31,708 nt of DNA from a virus. The notes under the pieces are model-generated. The model searched no databases and was not told the DNA's origin. It saw only the letters and a list, made by a program, of their open reading frames with translations. The number at the start of each line of letters is the position of its first letter. Within the stretch, counting starts at the first letter, position 1. Of this stretch, positions 964 through 15,085 are shown one piece after another. The stretch spans positions 1 to 31,708 of the IMG/VR virus record IMGVR_UViG_3300035701_000174, one strand, 5' to 3'. A program made the position numbers and the translations under genes.

Positions 964-1185
964 ATGGCAATTATAATTAATAGTCCTTACTTTCCATCAT
1001 ATGAAAGACGTAATAATCCAATCAACGATTACATCTACGATATTCCTGAAAACAACTACCTTGCCTACCTCCTCAAACGCAAGGCCATCACTACAGGCAA
1101 CCTAATCACAGAACATCACATGCATATCACTCATCGCGACCTCTTCCTATTCCTACATAAACTAGGCGTTCGCCCACCACTATGA
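964..1185 (+). CDS. Micro-ORF A, double FLxxL-type core
   Basis: A 73-residue frame starting MAIIINSPYFPSYERRN. Two short segments resemble the core shared by the micro-proteins downstream: NNYLAYLLKRKAI around residues 30-42 and DLFLFLHKLGV near the C-terminus. The start is fixed by a TATAAA box placed six bases before the ATG, which suggests a leaderless transcript. The stop TGA overlaps the ATG of the next small frame (ATGA at 1182-1185), a translational-coupling arrangement repeated through the cassette. No enzymatic motif, signal peptide or clear membrane helix is visible. Function unknown; it could be an N-terminal duplication of the family or a two-core fusion. Confidence 0.5.
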   Translation: MAIIINSPYFPSYERRNNPINDYIYDIPENNYLAYLLKRKAITTGNLITEHHMHITHRDLFLFLHKLGVRPPL

Positions 1186-1331
1186 CACCAGAACAAATCA
1201 ACATGATAATGATAAATAATCTCTTCATCTTCTTATATAAGCTGAAGATATATAAACCGGTTAACCCTCTCCACCCACCATTTCCATATTCACTCAGTGA
1301 CATCCATCGATACCCACCACCATTGCCCTGA
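1182..1331 (+). CDS. Micro-ORF B, FLxxL-type core
   Basis: A 49-residue frame (MTPEQINMIMINN...) whose ATG overlaps the stop of the preceding micro-ORF by ATGA. Residues about 13-23 read NLFIFLYKLKI, clearly like the NLHSFLTKLKV of the micro-ORF at 2870 and the DLFLFLHKLGV of the preceding gene. The C-terminal half is proline- and histidine-rich (repeated P-P, ending YPPPLP) and shows no family similarity, so this member may be degraded or truncated. No ribosome binding site is visible; translation would depend on coupling. Function unknown. Confidence 0.4.
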   Translation: MTPEQINMIMINNLFIFLYKLKIYKPVNPLHPPFPYSLSDIHRYPPPLP

Positions 1332-1369
1332 TACAATGAGACTACACACTTAACCTCGGGCATGTCACG

Positions 1370-1462
1370 ATGACTACCACAGAACACTCTATATTTATTA
1401 TATTTCTTGTTCTTATTCTCATCATCGGGTGCTTGCCCGCTTCCAAAGAGAAAGGCCCATAA
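1370..1462 (+). CDS. Possible 30-residue lipoprotein-like micro-ORF
   Basis: A 30-codon frame with a short polar start (MTTTEHS), a solid hydrophobic run of about 12 residues (IFIIFLVLILII) and then G-C-L-P-A-S-K. The L-I-I-G-C junction fits a lipobox, with the cysteine at position 21, leaving a ten-residue mature tail. Phages do encode such tiny lipoproteins or membrane peptides (lysis, superinfection exclusion). The ribosome binding site is weak and the frame is very short, so chance is a real alternative. It sits between the micro-ORF pair at 964-1331 and the gene at 1481. Confidence 0.3.
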   Translation: MTTTEHSIFIIFLVLILIIGCLPASKEKGP

Positions 1463-1468
1463 GTGTGA

Positions 1469-1480
1469 TAAAATATTCTC
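1469..1480 (+). promoter_or_regulatory. Putative leaderless promoter -10 box
   Basis: TAAAAT at 1469-1474, preceded by TG-containing GTGTGA, is followed by six bases (ATTCTC) and then ATG 1481. No Shine-Dalgarno sequence is present. This would launch the tightly overlapping operon running from 1481 to 3058. Confidence 0.45.
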
Positions 1481-1804
1481 ATGTCTGGAGAATATTTAAG
1501 TTTTAATAAAGGTAGCCAGTGGACTTTGCACAAGGCAATTGCGGCCCCAGCTGCTGTCATAAAACCAGCCATACCAAAAGAGCCCACCTCTGACTACAAG
1601 CCAACATCTGAAAAATATAAAGTCTTTGGCGGCAACGCAAAAGATGGTGCTCTACATGTAGACAACGGTAGGAAGGGTATGTTGCACGCAACAGGCAGTA
1701 CTGGTAATGTTAAGGCTGGTAAGACAAACTTCAAGAATGTTGGGAAGCCAGCACATACGATGCAGAGCGTCTACAACGAGCGCAACCCCGGCGTCGGTGA
1801 CTAA
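1481..1804 (+). CDS. Hypothetical protein, 107 aa, operon leader gene
   Basis: A 107-residue frame (MSGEYLSFNKGSQW...) that heads a run of eight overlapping small genes. The N-terminal third is Ala/Pro-rich (AIAAPAAVIKPAIPKEP); the rest is polar and glycine-rich with KYKVFGGNAKDGALHVDNG and KAGKTNFKNVGKPAHT, which looks like an extended or disordered tail rather than an enzyme. The start is set by a -10-like TAAAAT box six bases upstream. The TAA stop shares its last A with the ATG of the following micro-ORF (TAATG at 1802-1806). Unlike its neighbours it lacks the FLxxL core. Function unknown. Confidence 0.55.
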   Translation: MSGEYLSFNKGSQWTLHKAIAAPAAVIKPAIPKEPTSDYKPTSEKYKVFGGNAKDGALHVDNGRKGMLHATGSTGNVKAGKTNFKNVGKPAHTMQSVYNERNPGVGD

Positions 1805-1971
1805 TGTACTATCAATTACCGATCGGCAAGCGATACATCGATGCCGACTACAAGATTCATCTGCTGTACTTCTTAAAACAACTTGGCATCATAGAGACTC
1901 TCTTCTCTTACGAGAACCCGCACGGTAGGTACTACAACATAAAGATGACGATAAAAGAACGAGATGTATAA
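1804..1971 (+). CDS. Micro-ORF C, FLxxLGI core
   Basis: A 55-residue frame starting MYYQLPIGKRYI. The core is HLLYFLKQLGII at about residues 19-30, followed by a beta-like tail (LFSYENPHGRYYNIKM). This order, a short amphipathic helix with F-L-x-x-L-x-I/V followed by a strand-turn-strand with aromatic residues, is the best-defined version of the family and is seen again in micro-ORFs D, I and the minus-strand gene at 3027. The start overlaps the upstream stop as TAATG; no ribosome binding site is visible, so coupled translation is likely. Function unknown. Confidence 0.55.
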   Translation: MYYQLPIGKRYIDADYKIHLLYFLKQLGIIETLFSYENPHGRYYNIKMTIKERDV

Positions 1972-2143
1972 TTCATTTATGAAGAGACATAATTTTATAA
2001 TAGTAAAAACAGAGGGTGATTACCACCCCACTATAAGTTTGATAAAGCTATTATGGAGTTTAGGTATTATAAAAGAGTACATATGTTTTTATGCTGCAGA
2101 GAATGAAACACAGATGATACAGGTATGGTGCTATGATAATTAG
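1964..2143 (+). CDS. Micro-ORF D, L-L-x-x-L-G-I-I core
   Basis: A 59-residue frame beginning MYNSFMKRHNFIIVKTEG. It overlaps the end of micro-ORF C by eight bases. The core SLIKLLWSLGIIKEY lies at about residues 25-39 and aligns with HLLYFLKQLGII of C. It is followed by strand-like ICFYAAEN and MIQVWCYDN. The protein therefore looks like strand, helix, strand, strand in about 60 residues. No catalytic residues stand out. Its reality is supported by the frame continuity, the overlap pattern and the shared core rather than by size. Confidence 0.5.
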   Translation: MYNSFMKRHNFIIVKTEGDYHPTISLIKLLWSLGIIKEYICFYAAENETQMIQVWCYDN

Positions 2144-2300
2144 AGACGAAGCAACACACAGCTTAATTATGTTTCTCATTAAACTAAGAGTTGTAAAGAG
2201 TATTAAATACTTTGTAGATGCGAGACCAATACAGTGGACTTATGCAGGACAAAGTTACTCTGTGCATAACTATGTAGTAGAGAATATAGGGAATTTATAA
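2133..2300 (+). CDS. Micro-ORF E, FLxKLRV core
   Basis: A 55-residue frame, MIIRDEATHSLIMFLIKLRV..., overlapping micro-ORF D by eleven bases and ending in TAATG shared with micro-ORF F. The core HSLIMFLIKLRVVKS is at residues 9-23; the remainder (YFVDARPIQW then YSVHNYVVENI) is aromatic and beta-like as in members C, D and I. No signal peptide or enzyme motif. Function unknown. Confidence 0.5.
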   Translation: MIIRDEATHSLIMFLIKLRVVKSIKYFVDARPIQWTYAGQSYSVHNYVVENIGNL

Positions 2301-2530
2301 TGGACCATTTAACAGATTCTCTGAGATATTCATTTAATGGGATCTCTTGGAGCAATGACTCTGATAGTCGCATTGATCTAATTAAGTTTCTAGCTATGCT
2401 TAACGTAAAAGCCGCTCAGACTCAATATAATGCATATAGAGCGGGGGCCCCTTTCAGAATCAACTGGTGCAACAATTACTTGAACGACGACACTGGAAAC
2501 AGTACAATTACTTGGAATATAGATGAATGA
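2300..2530 (+). CDS. Micro-ORF F, FLAMLNV core
   Basis: A 76-residue frame with a longer N-terminus (MDHLTDSLRYSFNGISW) than its neighbours. The core RIDLIKFLAMLNVKAAQ lies around residues 28-44, followed by aromatic beta-like segments (RAGAPFRINWCNN and NSTITWNIDE). It starts in TAATG with micro-ORF E and ends in ATGA with micro-ORF G. Function unknown; same family as the flanking frames by motif and architecture. Confidence 0.55.
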   Translation: MDHLTDSLRYSFNGISWSNDSDSRIDLIKFLAMLNVKAAQTQYNAYRAGAPFRINWCNNYLNDDTGNSTITWNIDE

Positions 2531-2700
2531 GCACACAAGATATTTTGAAATCTTTAGAGATTTCTATGTATAAGGCAGAGAATACAAGAATGGATATTGA
2601 TCGTGGGCACCCAATGGTAGGTCTAGCTCATATGTTTGCACGTGAGGCTCTAATTAATTTTCTAGCAAAATTAGATAAAAGATTCAGGAAGTTTGTATGA
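2527..2700 (+). CDS. Micro-ORF G, FLAKL core at C-terminus
   Basis: A 57-residue frame, MSTQDILKSLEISMYKAEN..., with ATGA overlaps at both ends. The core ALINFLAKLDKRF sits at the very C-terminus, so this member lacks the beta-like tail of the others; the N-terminal 40 residues look helical. It could be a different small protein that carries only the helix, or a shortened relative. Function unknown. Confidence 0.45.
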   Translation: MSTQDILKSLEISMYKAENTRMDIDRGHPMVGLAHMFAREALINFLAKLDKRFRKFV

Positions 2701-2873
2701 GTAGATACAAGCAGAGAAGATACTTGCGCCCAGAGTGTTGTCTGGCCATGTTTATGGGAAGACTATTGGGCGCAAGACGTCATATTGATAGTCACGGAAC
2801 ACATATGTATCTATTTAAGAAGACAGGTCATTTGATAAAAGTATCTCCTCAGTGGATAACGGAATCTACATGA
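2697..2873 (+). CDS. Micro-ORF H, basic small protein
   Basis: A 58-residue, strongly basic frame: MSRYKQRRYLRPECC, then a hydrophobic helix LAMFMGRLLGARRH that aligns only loosely with the family core, then beta-like GTHMYLFKKTGHLIKVSPQW. The Arg/Lys content would suit nucleic-acid binding, but no named fold is recognised. It starts inside ATGA with micro-ORF G and ends overlapping the ATG of micro-ORF I (ATGATGA). Confidence 0.45.
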   Translation: MSRYKQRRYLRPECCLAMFMGRLLGARRHIDSHGTHMYLFKKTGHLIKVSPQWITEST

Positions 2874-3058
2874 TGAGCCAGCAGGAGTTTAAAGATTATC
2901 AAGCACGAGTAAACCTTCACAGCTTCCTTACAAAGCTTAAAGTAACAAAATACAATGTACCTCTTATAGGTATTAAATATATAATAGCAAGTGCATTTAA
3001 TTTAGAAAATGATCACAATGGCGAAACTATTTTGGTACAGAAGTCTTGCGTAAAATAG
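2870..3058 (+). CDS. Micro-ORF I, FLTKLKV core
   Basis: A 62-residue frame (MMSQQEFKDYQARV...). I chose ATG 2870 over the in-frame GTG at 2852 because 2870 gives the tight stop-start overlap used throughout this cassette; ATG 2873 is equally possible. The core VNLHSFLTKLKVTKY lies at residues 14-28, followed by strand-like LIGIKYIIASAFNLE and ETILVQKS. Its last 32 bases overlap the end of a convergent minus-strand gene. It is the last gene of the + strand cassette. Confidence 0.55.
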   Translation: MMSQQEFKDYQARVNLHSFLTKLKVTKYNVPLIGIKYIIASAFNLENDHNGETILVQKSCVK

Positions 3059-3287
3059 CCATATCGCGCGTTATGTGAATAAGACCTCTTTTTCTTTTAT
3101 TTGAATCATAGGACTTAAAGCTCATAGAATATTTATTGTTGCTCTTAGTTACTGAGAATCTTATCTCTCCAATGATGTGCAATAATCGTAAGAAGTTTAT
3201 AAGATGATGCACCGCAGTGACTTGCTCATCTGTTATATCACTAAAACAACTATGAGACATCAGTGACCCCAAGAACTGAGAGTTCAC
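3027..3287 (-). CDS. Minus-strand micro-protein J, FLRLLHII core
   Basis: A minus-strand frame of 86 residues; a second in-frame ATG at 3260-3258 would shorten it to 77 and reduce its overlap with the upstream gene to 11 bases. The core AVHHLINFLRLLHIIGE is followed by strand-like IRFSVTKSNNKYSMSFKSYD, the same helix-then-hairpin order as micro-ORFs C, D and I on the opposite strand. The C-terminus is basic (SNKRKRG). It converges on and overlaps micro-ORF I by 32 bases. This is the strongest sign that the small proteins form one family independent of strand. Function unknown. Confidence 0.55.
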   Translation of the reverse strand: MNSQFLGSLMSHSCFSDITDEQVTAVHHLINFLRLLHIIGEIRFSVTKSNNKYSMSFKSYDSNKRKRGLIHITRDMAILRKTSVPK

Positions 3288-3432
3288 TTACTTTTTCCAT
3301 ATACTCAACAAATGCCGCTACAGAAGCTGGGATAGCAGTCTTGATACCAAGGTCCCTAAGGAAATAGAGAAACTTAAGTTTACACTCAAGCTTAGCTAAT
3401 TCATGTGAATTTGGTGGATTCTCGCCTCTCAT
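3250..3432 (-). CDS. Minus-strand micro-protein K, FLRDLGI core
   Basis: A 60-residue minus-strand frame, MRGENPPNSHELAKLECKL..., containing the core LKFLYFLRDLGIKTAI at about residues 19-34. The C-terminus is predicted helical and acidic (AAFVEYMEKVSELSV) rather than beta-like. Its start overlaps the stop of the preceding minus-strand frame as ATGA at 3432-3429, and its end overlaps gene J. Function unknown; grouped with the micro-protein family by the core. Confidence 0.5.
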   Translation of the reverse strand: MRGENPPNSHELAKLECKLKFLYFLRDLGIKTAIPASVAAFVEYMEKVSELSVLGVTDVS

Positions 3433-3638
3433 CTAGAGGTAGTTATACTCCACGAGTATAGTGAGCATGTAGTAGCTGCTGAAGAAATACCTTCAGTTGT
3501 ATTGAGTAATACATATCCAACATTTCTTGTCTGCTGTTGAAATGAAAATGAACGGGTCTCTTGACTCGCTTTTCCATGGCTACTTCCTTTTATCATTGAT
3601 GGGCGGTTTTGGAGTGATGAAGAATATAAAGTTTTCAC
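3429..3638 (-). CDS. Small hypothetical protein, GTG start, first of minus operon
   Basis: A 69-residue frame starting with GTG at 3638-3636, with AGGCGGA a few bases upstream and a TATAAT box further back at 3682-3677. It ends in an ATGA overlap with micro-protein K, which argues that it is the first gene of a three-gene minus-strand operon. The protein is Ser/Thr/Gln-rich (LYSSSLQNRPS, SFSFQQQTRN, ISSAATTCSLYSW) without the FLxxL core, signal or recognisable domain. The opposite strand also reads plausibly here but lacks a start, so I favour the minus frame with modest confidence. Confidence 0.4.
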   Translation of the reverse strand: MKTLYSSSLQNRPSMIKGSSHGKASQETRSFSFQQQTRNVGYVLLNTTEGISSAATTCSLYSWSITTSR

Positions 3639-3762: not shown

Positions 3763-4137
3763 ATGGCTGATACAAATTTTGACATAGATCAAGGCACTAA
3801 TTTTAGACTTGATTGTGAGGTGTTAGACGGCTTAGGTGATCCTATAGATATCACTACAGCGCTTATAATTGGACAAGTAAGAAAGACTGCATCCAATAAG
3901 ACTATAGAGGCTGAATTTGTAGTTGAACCTACAAATCTTTTATTGGGACAGTTTGCAATAACACTCAGCGCTGTAGCTACATCAAAACTAAAATGTAATC
4001 CCTCTAATTCAGCACAACGTATCCCAACACAATTTGCTTACGATGTAGAGATTCACTACACAGACGGAACTGTTAACCGGATTTTATCTGGTGTATTTAA
4101 TGTTTCTCCAGAGGTAACACGCACATGTCAGATATAA
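3763..4137 (+). CDS. Ig-like virion protein, BppU N-terminal-like
   Basis: A 124-residue frame with an AAGGA ribosome binding site seven bases before the ATG. The opening D-I-D-Q-G-T-N-F, followed by a strand, then G-D-P-I-D-I-T-T and a VRKTAS strand, is the pattern seen in short beta-sandwich domains found at the N-terminus of phage baseplate upper proteins and in small structural proteins next to fibres. The second half is also beta-like (YDVEIHYTDGTVNRILSGVF). No enzyme motif. The next gene, a collagen-like fibre, starts 13 bases before this one ends, so the two are translationally coupled and probably assemble together, this protein perhaps joining the fibre to the tail or head. Role inferred from architecture and neighbour. 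Confidence 0.6.
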   Translation: MADTNFDIDQGTNFRLDCEVLDGLGDPIDITTALIIGQVRKTASNKTIEAEFVVEPTNLLLGQFAITLSAVATSKLKCNPSNSAQRIPTQFAYDVEIHYTDGTVNRILSGVFNVSPEVTRTCQI

Positions 4138-5234
4138 AAACTATAGTAATTAATGAAGGTAAGAAGGGTGCTGATGGTGCAGTTGGACCAGCTGGACCAC
4201 CGGGTTCACCAGGCGCCAATGGTGCTGATGGAGCTGATGGTGCAATAATAGCAGTAATGGACGAAGGTTCTACATTAACTTCTGCAGCAACATCAATTAA
4301 TTTTGTTGGTGCAGGTGTAACTGCCACGATGCCAACTGCTGATGAAATTTTAATTACTATTCCTGGAGGAAGCGGCGCAAATACCGCGCTTTCAAACTTA
4401 GATGTGACTACGGCAGTTAGCCAAGATCTGTTAATGGCGACTGGGAAAACTTTAAGACTTCCTCATCAGACTCCTCTTTTAGCAAGAAACTCTGCTGGAA
4501 CAGGAACTATAGAATTACTACAGGTGTATGGGATTGGCAATGCTGTTTTCTTTGGAAATAAAGCTGCATTTTCGTATGTTGCACTGGATACTGGAAATGT
4601 TTCTATCAGCACTAATAATAATTCTGACGGGGATGTTTATTTATCTGCGAACACTCTTACCCTGGGATATGCTGGTGGAGTCTCTGCCCCTAAACTACAA
4701 TTTTCCGATAGAGATGAAAACTTCTATGTGAGTATTAAAGCGCCAGAAACACTTTCAGCAGGGTACACTTTAACTCTACCGCCAGACGACGGCACGGTTG
4801 GGCAAGTTTTAGAAACCGATGGTACTGGGACAACTACATGGGCAACAAAGGCTAGCACAAATTTAGGCAACCTAACTACGACTTCGATTGGAGTCGATTT
4901 ATTATTTAACGCAGCAACATTTAATATTGGCTCAGACACAATTCCAGTCGGCGAAGTAAAAACCTCCTCTGTTTTTTCACCAATAAACGCATTAAATATT
5001 GCTTCTGCATTAGATATTGATTTATTTGCTGGCACAGAGTTTGTAAATTTACGATCTTATAATGGCATAATCGCACCTGCTTTGAAATTTTATGAAGAAA
5101 GCAGTACTTTTTCAGCGGGTATTAAAGCACCCGAAGCATTAGCGGCAAATTACACACTAACACTACCAGTTGATACCGGAATTGCTGGTCAATCACTTAA
5201 AACTGATGGTGCTGGAAATTTATATTGGGGATAA
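4125..5234 (+). CDS. Collagen-like tail or head fibre
   Basis: A 369-residue frame. Residues 12-38 form nine G-X-Y triplets (GKK, GAD, GAV, GPA, GPP and so on), typical of trimeric phage fibres. Next comes a beta-rich region, then two related modules at residues 191-240 and 320-369. Each reads roughly L-x-F, I-K-A-P-E-x-L, Y-T-L-T-L-P, G-Q-x-L-x-T-D-G, ending in T-x-W or Y-W-G. This Y-T-L-T-L-P module is common in virion fibre and appendage proteins of aquatic phages. No chaperone or endosialidase domain follows, and the second module forms the C-terminus. Probably a trimeric appendage exposed on the virion; receptor binding is plausible but not shown. The ATG overlaps the upstream gene. Confidence 0.75.
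   Translation: MSDIKTIVINEGKKGADGAVGPAGPPGSPGANGADGADGAIIAVMDEGSTLTSAATSINFVGAGVTATMPTADEILITIPGGSGANTALSNLDVTTAVSQDLLMATGKTLRLPHQTPLLARNSAGTGTIELLQVYGIGNAVFFGNKAAFSYVALDTGNVSISTNNNSDGDVYLSANTLTLGYAGGVSAPKLQFSDRDENFYVSIKAPETLSAGYTLTLPPDDGTVGQVLETDGTGTTTWATKASTNLGNLTTTSIGVDLLFNAATFNIGSDTIPVGEVKTSSVFSPINALNIASALDIDLFAGTEFVNLRSYNGIIAPALKFYEESSTFSAGIKAPEALAANYTLTLPVDTGIAGQSLKTDGAGNLYWG
4695..5231 (+). repeat. Two-copy Y-T-L-T-L-P module in fibre gene
   Basis: Protein-level repeat: copy one spans about 4695-4844, copy two about 5082-5231. Shared residues include I-K-A-P-E, Y-T-L-T-L-P, G-Q and T-D-G. The DNA copies have diverged, so the duplication is old or was acquired as separate modules. Confidence 0.65.
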
Positions 5235-5363
5235 TTACGAGATCTTTTTATAGATTCGTGGACCAATAAGTTTCATCATAAACATATAGAGAAAATATTT
5301 AGAAAAGTCTTTATTTTGCCTTTCCATTACCTCTTCTATAGAGGTTGCTATTTTTTGTCCCAT
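5235..5363 (-). CDS. Hypothetical 42-residue protein
   Basis: The minus-strand frame can be read from further upstream, but that extension lies antisense to the well-supported gene at 5348-5599. I take ATG 5363-5361, giving MGQKIATSIEEVMERQNKDF and a basic, hydrophobic end (FLYMFMMKLIGPRIYKK). The start overlaps the upstream gene by 16 bases, like the overlap between the two genes before it. A short amphipathic or membrane-associated helix is possible at FLYMFMMKLI. The stop directly abuts the convergent fibre gene. Function unknown. Confidence 0.45.
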   Translation of the reverse strand: MGQKIATSIEEVMERQNKDFSKYFLYMFMMKLIGPRIYKKIS

Positions 5364-5599
5364 CGGTATGTCTCTCGAACATCCTCTATTGTCATCTCTT
5401 CGTCTACAAGAGCATGATGTGTTAAGACATCTAATGCCATTTTTACTCTTTGTTGTTGAGTGGGTGGAATTGGATTTAAGAATTCTGGAAGACACATTGC
5501 TCGAAACGGACATCTTGTACACCTCATTGAATCCATACATTTACCATCTAGATTTACTATCTCATCTAAGGTTGATGCATCTTGTTTACTCAGAGCCAT
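5348..5599 (-). CDS. Cysteine-rich small protein, CxxCPF motif
   Basis: An 83-residue minus-strand protein. The cysteines are arranged as G-K-C, five residues, C-T-R-C-P-F-R-A-M-C, which could bind zinc or an iron-sulfur cluster; the C-P-F/L signature recurs in small phage proteins of unknown role. The C-terminal half is helical and acidic (VDEEMTIEDVRETY). It overlaps the upstream gene by 14 bases and the downstream one by 16. The upstream gene carries a related pattern, so the pair probably arose by duplication. Metal binding is inference. Confidence 0.65.
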   Translation of the reverse strand: MALSKQDASTLDEIVNLDGKCMDSMRCTRCPFRAMCLPEFLNPIPPTQQQRVKMALDVLTHHALVDEEMTIEDVRETYRWDKK

Positions 5600-5846
5600 T
5601 TTTATCTCCGATGATCTCTTCTATGGCTTCTGATAGAAGTATGCGTGATGCTATATCAAGATATTTTGCATCGGCTTCTTCTTCTGATAGGTCTTGTACC
5701 CCAAGTGATTCTATACAAGACATATAACTTCCATTTGGCTTTATTTTTAGCATACTGAGTGGACAGATAGCGCATATATTAGGTCTAGCCCAACAACAAC
5801 TGCCGCCTTCTTCAACAATCTTTTTAACAATATCCATTTTATTCAT
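5586..5846 (-). CDS. Cysteine-rich small protein, C-x-x-CPL motif
   Basis: An 86-residue minus-strand protein beginning MNKMDIVKKIVEEGGSCCWA. Its pattern is G-G-S-C-C, then N-I-C-A-I-C-P-L and a later S-C-I-E, followed by an acidic helical end with EEEADAKYLDIASRIL. It resembles the next gene (G-K-C ... C-x-x-C-P-F). A CAGGA ribosome binding site precedes the ATG and a TATAAT box lies at 5873-5868, so this is the first gene of a three-gene minus-strand operon placed between two virion genes of opposite orientation. Cluster or zinc binding is plausible; function unknown. Confidence 0.7.
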   Translation of the reverse strand: MNKMDIVKKIVEEGGSCCWARPNICAICPLSMLKIKPNGSYMSCIESLGVQDLSEEEADAKYLDIASRILLSEAIEEIIGDKNGSE

Positions 5847-5929: not shown

Positions 5930-6754
5930 ATGTCTATAACTAAACCTAATCAGCCGTATCCATTGCCGCCAGCGACGTCAACAACGTCAACGCCGTCACC
6001 GATGCCGATATATTTACCTGACCCATCTATCAAAGGAGTCAGCTTTGATCAACTATTGAATCAAAGAGGTATTAGAATGTTACATCACAAAGCTATACCT
6101 TGTATGAACGTAGAATCAACTGACTTTCAAGCTCATGTGCCTGACTGTCAATTCTGCGATGACTCAGGAATTATTTATTATGATGTTAGAGAAATTTGGG
6201 GCGTTTTTAGTGGAAACTCAATTGAGAAAACTTTTGAAGCTCATGGAGTTTGGGAAGTTGGAACAGCAGTTGTAACTTTGCCAACTGAGTATGCAGATGG
6301 TACTCAAGCAGATTTCAATACATACGATAAGTTTGAACTTCCCGATTTCACAGTTCGGCTTTGGGAACTTAAGGGATATGAACCACGTGCTGGCAATAAA
6401 CAAGAACTTAGATATCCTATAGAGAAAATAGAATATGCATCATCTATTACAGATGGAGTTCAAAAGTTCTATACGCTTGGTGTAGATTTCAATATTGGTC
6501 CCGATGGTGAAATAGTATGGATAGCAGGCAAAGAACCTGCATATAATGTTGATAAAGAGCGTGGAGAAGTTGTAGGTTGGGCTTATTTTGCTAAACCAGT
6601 ATATGTTGTAATACAGTCACTTCGTGAACTAAGAATAACACAAGAGTTGATAAATGGTACAAAACAAGCACGAAGACTGCCACAGCAGATACTAGTAAAA
6701 CGTGACTTTATGATGGGTGCTGGCGAGAAAATAGAGAATCCAGTTGTCCCTTAA
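5930..6754 (+). CDS. Virion structural protein, possible neck or connector, zinc-like motif
   Basis: A 274-residue protein. The N-terminal 30 residues are a Pro/Thr/Ser linker. Residues 44-80 hold N-Q-R-G-I-R-M-L-H-H-K-A-I-P-C, H69 and C73-Q-F-C76, a C/H/CxxC arrangement that looks like a structural metal site. From residue 85 on the protein is beta-rich (IWGVFSGN, GTAVVTLPTEYADG, FTVRLWELKGYEPR) and ends in a helical stretch (SLRELRITQELINGTKQARR). It lies at the head of the connector region before the sheath, so a neck or head-tail joining role is likely; other virion positions are not excluded. The transcript is probably near-leaderless. The family assignment is inference. Confidence 0.6.
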   Translation: MSITKPNQPYPLPPATSTTSTPSPMPIYLPDPSIKGVSFDQLLNQRGIRMLHHKAIPCMNVESTDFQAHVPDCQFCDDSGIIYYDVREIWGVFSGNSIEKTFEAHGVWEVGTAVVTLPTEYADGTQADFNTYDKFELPDFTVRLWELKGYEPRAGNKQELRYPIEKIEYASSITDGVQKFYTLGVDFNIGPDGEIVWIAGKEPAYNVDKERGEVVGWAYFAKPVYVVIQSLRELRITQELINGTKQARRLPQQILVKRDFMMGAGEKIENPVVP

Positions 6755-6807: not shown

Positions 6808-7158
6808 GTGTTGCATTTAGATCAATTCAAGCATATTGAGGTAAGTTTGCACGGAAAGATCCGTAAAAACAAACTATATTTTTGCTCTTGTGATCGTTGC
6901 GGCGCAAATAAAGGGTATAAACCTAAGTCGTATAAAGCTCAATTGTGTAATAGATGCGCTCAATCTAATTTTGAACCATGGATGAATTGGGATAATTATG
7001 GTAAATGGGAAATTGATCACATAATTCCTGACAGTTCTTTTAATTATTCTTCAGTTTATGATGATGCTTTTAAAAAGAGTTGGACATTAGAAAATTTACA
7101 ACCACTTGAAAAGTCTGCTAATGCTAGTAAGGGAGCAAAAATATGCCTCAAAGCGTAA
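6808..7158 (+). CDS. HNH endonuclease
   Basis: A 116-residue protein starting at GTG, with CAGGAG a few bases upstream. Cysteines C26, C28, C31, C47 and C50 form a zinc-ribbon-like site. The catalytic region follows: W-E-I-D70-H71-I-I-P, then L-E-N96-L-Q-P-L and N105-A-S-K-G. This fits the small single-domain HNH nucleases of phages (beta-beta-alpha metal fold), which cut DNA and are often mobile or linked to packaging. It lies alone among virion genes and its last 16 bases overlap the start of the Nudix-containing gene, typical of a free-standing homing nuclease or a gene retained after invasion. Enzyme class is well supported; the biological role is open. Confidence 0.8.
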   Translation: MLHLDQFKHIEVSLHGKIRKNKLYFCSCDRCGANKGYKPKSYKAQLCNRCAQSNFEPWMNWDNYGKWEIDHIIPDSSFNYSSVYDDAFKKSWTLENLQPLEKSANASKGAKICLKA

Positions 7159-8684
7159 GCAGAAAGCAATTTAGAATGATGCAGGCAATATTACACGGAA
7201 AAGCTGATCCATCTAAATCTGGTGGTCGTGGCACTCCGCCTAAATCTATTGCAGCTAAATACTCAGCCCCTAGTAAAGACGCTCCAGAAAATCACGGCGA
7301 AAATCGTGGTGGTACATGGGGTGAAAAACACCATGCCAAAGCTAAAGATAAAGTTAAAGAAGATAGAGCAAAACGCAAGAAACATAAGAAATCAAAAAAA
7401 GAACTTAAGAAGTCTTTTGAGGATTTTTATAAGGGTCATGCGGCAGCTGCTATAGTAATGGATGATAACAATAGAATCCTATTAGGACGTCATAGTTCTG
7501 GTGGATTAGCTTTTGCTGGTGGTCATTGCGATGACGCTGATGGAAGTAAAGATATCACTGCATTAAGAGAACTTAAAGAAGAGTTTGGAATTACCGGAAA
7601 GAATCCTCAAAAGATCTGGTCTGGTAAATTAAACGGCAATGAGTGTGATGTATTTTTAGTTGAATCATTCACTGGTGAACCTAAATCAACAGATGAAATT
7701 AAGAGTCCTCGTTGGGTTGAACCTAGTGATATTCCCTGGGACAAGTTGCGTGACTGCTGTGTTGAACCATTAGAATCTCTAATTAGGGAGAAGATGGGTA
7801 AATCACTTGCTGGCATGCTTGCTATTGAAAAATTAGAGAAAAATATCGTACGTCAGAAAGCAGATGCAGTACTAGAAGTCACACATGGTGATGCACTTCG
7901 TATAGTTGGCAACGGTCTCTTCCGCAAGATACGTGAAGTTGTTAAAGAGATGCAGGATGAAGATTTTAGGGATTTCGATATAGATACTCACAAGATTAGT
8001 ATTCGCAAACATATGAGCGATATTTATTCTGGTCGTGTAACTGATGGACATAAAGTAGTTTATCAGTGGACCAATAAATCACTACCTGAACTAACTGTCG
8101 CTCTCATGAGTGTATTTGAGTGGTACCTACCAGAAGATGAAAAAGATCTAGAACTACTAGACGACAATGCTTTACCTGATGACGCTGTTCACGGCGGCAT
8201 GCAGAACTTAATTGATAATTATAAAAAACACAATATTGCCAATATATATGAAGAGATGGAGACCATTCGAGAACAGATACGAAATGGTATGGCAGTAGAT
8301 CTTCAGCAAGTTGAAGCTCGCATAATGACTCTTTTTGATAAATTAGAAGATGTTGTTCATAACTTAACAGAGAAACATAATCACCTTGCTGGTATGGCTG
8401 GTTCAGAAATTGACGAACTAGAAAGAAAGTTAAAAGAATTACAGAATAAAATTGAAGAAATGGGTAATAGACCTGAGACCGTAGAAGCATTTTCTGTACA
8501 TAGAAAAGATCCTGTACAGATACATGATAATAACTATCCCTATCTACCACGCCCTGAAGTAGAAATATCTCCCAACGGGAAGATTAAAATAACATTTAAT
8601 TCTGGTTGGACAAATTTAGAAAAAGAGAATTTTTTACAGGATTTACGAGCTAAAGTAATAAAGCGCGGTAAGTCAGATGATTAA
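7143..8684 (+). CDS. Virion-type protein with embedded Nudix domain
   Basis: A 513-residue protein with four parts. Residues 1-90 are basic and disordered-looking (SRKQFRMMQAILHGK, GGTWGEKHHAK, KKHKKSKKELKK), a type of N-terminus I associate with prohead or connector proteins of large phages. Residues about 98-215 form a Nudix domain: AAAAIVMDDNNRILLGRH, AGGH and R142-E-L-K-E-E-F-G-I. The second half of the Nudix box is intact, but the usual Glu in the G-x5-E part is replaced around D-G-S, so activity may be altered. Residues 240-350 are an unrecognised alpha/beta region; 375-465 look like a coiled coil (Glu/Lys/Leu heptads), followed by a beta-like tail. It overlaps the HNH gene by 16 bases and the next gene by 8. 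Possible hydrolysis of a nucleoside-diphosphate-linked substrate; a structural role is equally likely. Confidence 0.7.
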   Translation: MPQSVSRKQFRMMQAILHGKADPSKSGGRGTPPKSIAAKYSAPSKDAPENHGENRGGTWGEKHHAKAKDKVKEDRAKRKKHKKSKKELKKSFEDFYKGHAAAAIVMDDNNRILLGRHSSGGLAFAGGHCDDADGSKDITALRELKEEFGITGKNPQKIWSGKLNGNECDVFLVESFTGEPKSTDEIKSPRWVEPSDIPWDKLRDCCVEPLESLIREKMGKSLAGMLAIEKLEKNIVRQKADAVLEVTHGDALRIVGNGLFRKIREVVKEMQDEDFRDFDIDTHKISIRKHMSDIYSGRVTDGHKVVYQWTNKSLPELTVALMSVFEWYLPEDEKDLELLDDNALPDDAVHGGMQNLIDNYKKHNIANIYEEMETIREQIRNGMAVDLQQVEARIMTLFDKLEDVVHNLTEKHNHLAGMAGSEIDELERKLKELQNKIEEMGNRPETVEAFSVHRKDPVQIHDNNYPYLPRPEVEISPNGKIKITFNSGWTNLEKENFLQDLRAKVIKRGKSDD

Positions 8685-14437: not shown

Positions 14438-15055
14438 ATGTCTGGTTTTAACAATCGCCCCTCTAACGGGCAAAGACTTTTAGATAACGTTGCTAGTAAT
14501 GCTAGTGGTGTATTTTCTACTAAGTCCTCTGCCAAATATGCTTCTGGCGCGCGATGTCTATTAAAGATCAATGGAAAACTATCTGCTTTTGCATTTGGTA
14601 TTTCTTGGAGAATTAGCACTCAGGTTACTGAAATTACAACTATAGACGACTATTTTCCTCACGAATTGGCTCCACAAAGAGTCAGTGTTGAGGGATCACT
14701 TTCTGCACTACATATCCCCGGTCAAAGCGCGGGAACTGAACTTTGGCAACCAGATGCTCTTAATTTTCTTTTTCAACAATATATAACTATTGAAGTAAGA
14801 GATTCTGCTTCAGATCAACTATTGTTTTACACTAGTAAGGCTATGATAACCTCTAGATCTGAAGATATTAAAGTTGACTCTTTAGCTAGTGTTCAACTTA
14901 CATGGAAAGCTATTGGTTTCCAAGATGAGCGCCCACCTGAATTAGCTGAACCTAAAGCTAAAGAAACTGCTCAACCAGCAAGTCGAAAAACAAAGTCAAT
15001 TACGTTACCGGCCGACAATGGTCCAAGATTTCCGGGCACTGGAAATATAGCATAA
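14438..15055 (+). CDS. Tail tube-like protein (paralogue 3), divergent
   Basis: A 205-residue protein with AAGGA just before the ATG, eight bases after paralogue 2. An N-terminal extension of about 30 residues (RPSNGQRLLDNVASNASG) precedes a region aligned with the other tube proteins: A-R-C-L-L-K-I-N-G-K-L-S-A-F-A-F-G-I-S-W, P-Q-R-V-S-V-E-G-S-L, and S-L-A-S-V-Q-L-T-W-K-A-I-G-F. The C-terminal 40 residues are a charged linker (PPELAEPKAKETAQPA). Divergence and added ends suggest a specialised ring, for example the tube cap at the baseplate or the end near the neck. Role is inferred from paralogy. Confidence 0.7.
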   Translation: MSGFNNRPSNGQRLLDNVASNASGVFSTKSSAKYASGARCLLKINGKLSAFAFGISWRISTQVTEITTIDDYFPHELAPQRVSVEGSLSALHIPGQSAGTELWQPDALNFLFQQYITIEVRDSASDQLLFYTSKAMITSRSEDIKVDSLASVQLTWKAIGFQDERPPELAEPKAKETAQPASRKTKSITLPADNGPRFPGTGNIA

Positions 15056-15079
15056 TATAGTCTATTAGCTTTTTATGGG

Positions 15080-15085
15080 TATAAT
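15080..15085 (+). promoter_or_regulatory. TATAAT -10 box before chaperone gene
   Basis: TATAAT ends 26 bases before ATG 15112. The leader contains AAGGAG at 15096-15101. Confidence 0.5.

Follow-up and report, generated by a model that had tools for sequence, protein, structure and literature searches.

What function is served by the crowd of very small, overlapping genes at positions 964 to 3,432 of the IMG/VR virus record IMGVR_UViG_3300035701_000174? The window analyzed here is a 31.7 kb piece of this uncultured virus record (positions 1 to 31,708; 31,708 nucleotides in full), and its virion genes, with PHROG matches to sheath, baseplate, and other virion proteins, point to a distant SPO1-like myophage lineage. 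The micro-genes share a short core motif and belong to a family confined to one clade of phages; in related genomes, many family members carry copies of conserved virion-protein segments beside the core. Tentatively, the array may consist of modular decoys that occupy sensors of unassembled virion subunits, a reading regarded here as possible and somewhat doubtful.

The array itself is well defined. A sequence-only reading of this DNA had proposed about eleven micro-frames with a common L-h-x-F-L-x-x-L core, and every one of these frames is present where it was placed. Among open frames of 35 codons or longer between 964 and 3432, twelve carry the pattern L..[FL][LMIW]..L, whereas 1000 dinucleotide shuffles gave 0.63 on average and never more than 4. 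LxxFLxxL has 16 exact matches in the six-frame translation of the window, 10 of them in or beside the array. The gapless overlap claimed for the plus-strand members from 1481 onward also holds, with junctions of 1, 8, 11, 1, 4, 4, and 1 bases, the last of which assumes ATG 2873 as the start instead of GTG 2852; upstream, the first two genes overlap by 4 bases, and a gap of 149 bases precedes 1481. Membership needed revision: 1481-1804 (107 residues) is part of the tiling and lacks the core, 2697-2873 has a degenerate core, and a further member and, probably, a weaker second one lie outside the range first drawn.

Comparison with a near-identical phage, L002, shows how these frames evolve. The core open reading frames (ORFs) from 964 to 3577 differ by 29 synonymous changes (404 sites) and 17 non-synonymous changes (1582 sites), a pooled ratio of non-synonymous to synonymous change per site (pN/pS) of ∼0.15, and exactly one micro-gene, 1182-1331, is cleanly absent from L002. 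Given the overlaps, the purifying selection against L002, and a core above chance, the frames are most likely real, coupled genes subject to modular gain and loss, and the purifying selection lets us infer that the micro-proteins are translated. A leaderless promoter (TATAAT directly before the ATG) was considered and dropped, as it precedes 13 of 142 micro-ORFs and 63 of 704 large genes; a separate promoter scan gave no excess, and an Rfam search no match. The features of the array, with the neighboring gene used as an anchor, are as follows.

964-1185, + strand: micro-gene 1, 73 residues, C-terminal core LFLFLHKLGV; the L002 ortholog has a different N-terminus (pN/pS 0.47, from few sites).
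1182-1331, + strand: micro-gene 2, 49 residues, core LFIFLYKLKI; ATGA overlap with micro-gene 1; absent from L002.
1481-1804, + strand: c133 companion, 107 residues, without core, N-terminal motif LSFNKGSQWTLHKA; pN/pS 0.17.
1804-1971, + strand: micro-gene, 55 residues, core HLLYFLKQLGI and an aromatic beta-like tail; 1-base overlap (TAATG).
1964-2143, + strand: micro-gene, 59 residues, core SLIKLLWSLGI; 8-base overlap; core-profile match at E=9.4e-5.
2133-2300, + strand: micro-gene, 55 residues, core SLIMFLIKLRV; 11-base overlap.
2300-2530, + strand: micro-gene, 76 residues, core DLIKFLAMLNV; 1-base overlap.
2527-2700, + strand: micro-gene, 57 residues, core ALINFLAKLDKRFRKFV; no significant virion similarity of its own.
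2697-2873, + strand: micro-gene, 58 residues, degenerate core CLAMFMGRLLG; orthologs in L020 and L187; 14 synonymous versus 4 non-synonymous changes.
2873-3058, + strand: micro-gene, 61 residues, core NLHSFLTKLKV; ATG at 2873 (listed GTG start 2852).
3027-3287, − strand: micro-gene, 86 residues, core HLINFLRLLHII; conserved ortholog group c139 (DQVTATY..L..LRRLRVIG), 10 orthologs aligned.
3250-3432, − strand: micro-gene, 60 residues, core FLYFLRDLGI; orthologs in L004 and L007.
3443-3577, − strand: micro-gene beyond the earlier coordinates, 44 residues, core IQLKVFLQQLLHAH; L004 ortholog 47% identical.
5235-5540, − strand: probable degenerate member, 101 residues (LYMFMMKLIG); homologs with the same tail in L004 and L007.
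5930-6754, + strand: conserved virion structural gene (phrog_1004) serving as synteny anchor.

Related contigs were collected through this anchor gene and through the conserved protein at 5-490, and the arrays of relatives sit at the equivalent site between the two, again upstream of the same structural gene. Homologs with the same core are present in these related phages, bearing out the proposal of a diversified micro-protein family: the total is 343 core micro-proteins (median 60 residues) from 45 sources, all within one uncultured SPO1-like myophage clade. A core profile matches 189 small ORFs and 0 shuffled ORFs at a cutoff of 10 bits, and several large genomes hold 12-20 profile matches apiece. 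The extended core, [AS]xxNLLxLLxKLGIKSA, forms an amphipathic helix with a glycine cap. In 103 pooled cores, the conserved residues fall where the search pattern imposed nothing, namely K at position 6 (57/103), A or S at -4, N at -1, and KSA after LGI. Most clade phages at least 60% identical at the anchor gene have the array, while those at 57% or below give 0, 1, or 2 matches, and core-profile searches of the isolates SPO1, Myxococcus Mx1, and Bacteroides DAC16 found no array. The window lies far from SPO1, as its phrog_1004-type protein is about 28% identical to that of SPO1 and the capsid protein of the clade 32%.

How the family diversified departs from what had been supposed. As in the window, micro-ORFs of relatives are tiled and have the core in common; their flanks are unalike. 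Whole-gene tandem duplication, the origin first suggested, finds no support in these flanks, with only the core aligning at a mean column identity of 20%, and the core may be N-terminal, central, or C-terminal, depending on the micro-protein. The anticipated common fold did not appear either, since the two predicted structures share only the core helix: the AlphaFold2 (AF2) model of window 3030-3287 is beta-alpha(core)-beta-beta plus a C-terminal helix (predicted local distance difference test score, pLDDT, 73), and that of L017:4229-4498 is all helix at low confidence. Foldseek found no PDB match to the former at E≤0.001. The family also lacks a name, as had been anticipated: the window members had no match in sequence searches against Pfam, PHROGs, PADLOC, and PDB, core micro-proteins gave PHROG noise only (E≥0.07), and when one micro-protein and an anchor protein were compared with named phages by tblastn, no micro-protein homolog emerged. 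Two sister cores also occur, hLxFLxKTGNxxA in L038 and CSCP...LhxLLHKLLH in several phages, as does a sub-group in which the core accompanies a cysteine-rich, zinc-ribbon-like sequence, C..C...C.GC (L032 7461-8324; L035 7882-8148; G011 14619-15083; G013 172058-172363).

What stands next to the core in relatives was unexpected and had escaped the earlier reading. The first lead was a BLAST search of one micro-protein against the proteins of its own phage, which suggested a similarity to the capsid. After masking of the core, 418 core-like ORFs were compared with protein clusters from eight phage genomes, shuffled sequences serving as the control: 12 ORFs scored at least 10 bits, 3 of them as full-length homologs of non-virion families, and none of the shuffles did. 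Against virion-protein profiles, masked payloads reach up to 28 bits and shuffles no more than 12. When the 343 core micro-proteins were run against 140 clusters, most matches fell to the capsid (c14), the sheath (c2), and the tube (c52, c54); the rest were to a probable tail protein, c109, and to ‘EFLARGGKI’, a short motif of c90. Shuffled sequences scored at best 14.6 in this run, against an unrelated cluster; single matches below that value are therefore not individually significant, while their recurrence is; iterated-profile scores are inflated for included members, and first-pass scores are the fair ones. Core ORFs show a 17-fold enrichment in virion fragments (13/23 versus 332/4802; Fisher p=6e-10), and most of the other 10 of those 23 carry a sister core.

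The same few segments recur. From the capsid, residues about 44-74 are copied in L187, L038, L127, G014, G004, and G013, residues 133-176 in L038 and weakly in G004, L020, and G008, and residues 231-267 in L210/L031, L038, L204, G008, G011-G014, and L140. The N-terminal segment of the tube is copied in L187, L038, L210/L031, L221, G008, G011, and G012, residues 1-20 of the sheath in G011, G012, G013, L204, and L025 (weakly in G008), and the N-terminus of the baseplate wedge (c16) in L038 and L140. Even diverged copies keep the conserved virion residues. In L187, the closest relative after L002 (81% at the anchor), ORF 150-398 is 62% identical to the capsid protein over 29 residues (E=4e-10), and ORF 800-1021 is 58% identical to the tube-like protein of the window over 26 residues (E=4e-8). 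The capsid is securely identified (phrog_752, E=2.6e-56) and the tube more weakly (phrog_1407, E=0.0023); tblastn with a mimic as query against named phages matches chiefly capsid genes. Payload order is modular: the tube segment precedes the core in L038 and follows it in L187, and in G008:124744 the core has a weak sheath-like start before it and a tube segment after it. A core micro-protein in G013 (123872-124063, − strand) bears the ‘ESIxEFIARGGKIxKIP’ motif of the c90 family (G008 85655-86041), so payload sources may extend beyond virion proteins. By eye, tail-fiber pieces resembling C1q/TNF-type beta-sandwiches (VPxSGxYxV...GD.V.I) also accompany the core (G014 53238-53540; G009 110109-110438; G008 125038-125436).

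One proposal, that payloads track the virion sequence of their own phage, was rejected. In 13 tests the protein of the same phage ranked 1, 43, 9, 57, 51, 33, 74, 69, 57, 8, 3, 56, and 54 of 88-90, near the median.

These observations can be assembled into a mechanism. Each micro-protein would be a common helix fused to a short payload, the amphipathic helix LLxLLxKLGIKSA serving as a shared handle for docking or oligomerization and the payload, in many members from relatives, copying a conserved capsid, tube, sheath, or baseplate-wedge segment. So built, it could occupy host or prophage proteins that recognize unassembled virion subunits, and the real subunits would thereby escape detection or blocking; the window members, their payloads unrecognizable, would work likewise. 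Copied segments come mainly from polymerizing proteins, and the copied sheath segment 1-20 corresponds to residues 1-23 of the E217 sheath, an N-terminal arm that is one of three moieties dictating sheath subunit assembly (PMC10329688). This decoy reading is favored because known defenses recognize such subunits before they assemble: DSR2 binds the tube as a monomer but not as a hexamer, and the competing protein DSAD1 inhibits it (PMC11087589), while the capsid protein is sensed by CapRel, and Lit is activated by Gol, a short peptide from the capsid protein of T4 (PMC9712102). The early suggestion of host-interaction or anti-defense peptides survives in part, with anti-defense as a leading possibility. 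Stated more broadly, as a protein-level library kept by a lytic phage clade, in which one docking helix and rotating virion-interface peptides neutralize immune proteins (or rival virions), the idea gains in plausibility and may come fairly near to an even chance.

Several observations weigh against decoys. No payload of the window's own micro-proteins has significant virion similarity, so mimicry is a property of the family in relatives and reaches the window by inference only; it is seen in L187 too, and the core of window 2527-2700 resembles that of L187:1099-1323, whose payload, by eye, resembles the baseplate-wedge N-terminus. Most payloads across the clade match nothing recognized, and no large conserved phage protein bearing the core, as source or partner of the helix, was found. 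AF2 gave models of moderate or low confidence that matched no PDB entry, the clade is known from uncultured members by sequence alone, and a sensor in the host is an assumption of the decoy reading. The own-virion test, with only 13 cases, could have missed a weak signal.

The same payloads allow other uses. As dominant-negative chain terminators, they might poison virions assembled by related phages in the same cell or by satellites with borrowed virion parts, the core helix blocking further addition. Segments of self-assembling proteins would suit this role, the sheath arm makes inter-subunit contacts, payloads match the virion proteins of relatives no worse than those of their own phage, and blocking virion assembly is a known antiviral strategy (Tab; PMC10884400). 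However, no discrimination of self from non-self is visible, and since the own virion is matched equally, such a poison should hurt the phage itself unless its expression is timed, which leaves this explanation unlikely, if deserving of attention. Regulators or chaperones of the phage's own assembly, capping the arms of highly expressed subunits until assembly begins, would explain why the array adjoins the structural module, and capsid, tube, sheath, and baseplate subunits are natural clients. Here the payload data argue against: payloads do not co-vary with the virion proteins of the same phage, so that mimicry of conserved epitopes fits better. Gene content also turns over rapidly, one gene having been gained or lost between near-identical phages, and SPO1 and related phages manage without an array; own-assembly regulation is therefore quite unlikely. 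The evidence does not decide among decoys, rival poisons, and own-assembly regulators.

Slightly less probable still is that these are ordinary host-takeover proteins, in which the helix binds a single host target (one in transcription or proteolysis, for instance) and virion genes were accidental coding donors. Small, coupled accessory gene arrays of unknown function are usual in large phages, many payloads are unrecognized, and the core can take any position; yet accident leaves unexplained the recurrence of the same few virion segments and the dominance of virion clusters. Fast turnover and extreme sequence divergence could also suggest evolutionary debris, made of chance frames and functionless gene fragments. 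This was already disfavored and is highly improbable in view of the low pN/pS (about 0.15), the tight start-stop coupling, the core far above chance, and the retained virion residues.

Known systems offer partial parallels to the proposed decoys. Ty1 p22 and Fv1 are truncated structural proteins serving as viral restriction factors, and they resemble the array in turning virion-protein pieces against assembly or infection; they differ in belonging to eukaryotic retroelements and in being large fragments without a common helix or array. The host-takeover module of SPO1, in a related myophage lineage, is likewise a cluster of many small genes, but a core-profile search of the SPO1 record found no match, and we know of no shared motif or virion-derived payload in that module. 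DSAD1, like other competitive inhibitors of virion-sensing defenses, is a small phage protein that competes with a virion subunit for a defense sensor (PMC11087589); it is a single protein with no array or shared helix, whereas the arrays of relatives use virion-segment copies and would bind sensors only under the proposed reading. Resemblance to virion proteins is present in relatives (capsid, tube, sheath, baseplate) and not detectable in the window's own members. Tab is similarly a small phage-encoded factor acting on virion assembly, but in the portion of its report used here it is one constitutively expressed prophage defense protein, neutralized by anti-Tab in the lytic cycle, and that portion makes no mention of a virion-copy array (PMC10884400).

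A limited search of the open-access literature found no description of virion-segment micro-protein arrays. Judged by anatomy, a modular library shared across a clade, in which one helix carries mimics of virion segments, appears to be a new kind of system, the mechanism being put forward as a hypothesis. Should that hypothesis hold, libraries of virion-interface mimics on a common scaffold helix would let phages escape virion-sensing immunity or attack rivals, and the copied segments would mark virion parts engaged by defenses or rivals not yet known. The decoy idea is directly testable with synthetic genes. As the micro-genes are 40-110 codons long and overlapping, standard annotation may miss many of them.

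The c133 companion at 1481-1804 occurs in 11 array-bearing sources and in zero sources without an array. Its N-terminal motif, FNxxGQWxLxK, recurs in many larger phage proteins; in the form I/LKxxxxGQWxLxK, N-terminal or internal, it is reused among many otherwise unlike ones (besides window 1481-1804, G012 53932-54684, L128 1801-2349, L180 8047-8658, and L229 17603-18226), some apparently with ADP-ribosyltransferase-like sequences. The motif could be a head-targeting signal of injected proteins.

Several other genes were noted near the array and in relatives. The flanking protein at 5-490 (− strand; QKEAVxxA...NWLRKDxRLNGG...KNPGSRxGxxDxQLKAM), without a Pfam match, is multi-copy, with paralogs in all genomes and several divergent or truncated copies per genome. 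A pair of cysteine-cluster proteins at 5348-5599 and 5586-5846 (− strand; C..W...CxxCP and C....C..CPF...C), without a Pfam or PHROG match, stands between array and structural genes in most relatives and is under strong purifying selection (pN/pS 0.04 and 0.12). A collagen-like (Gly-x-y) protein of 369 residues at 4125-5234 adjoins the array. Within the structural module, a small HNH-like gene (6808-7158) is inserted immediately ahead of a 513-residue protein (7143-8684) with an internal NUDIX-like domain and weak portal similarity (phrog_15528). G008, a 146.7 kb relative binned into a Cytophagales metagenome-assembled genome (LNEN01000305), carries at 6836-8572 a gene that by eye resembles a GroEL-like chaperonin.

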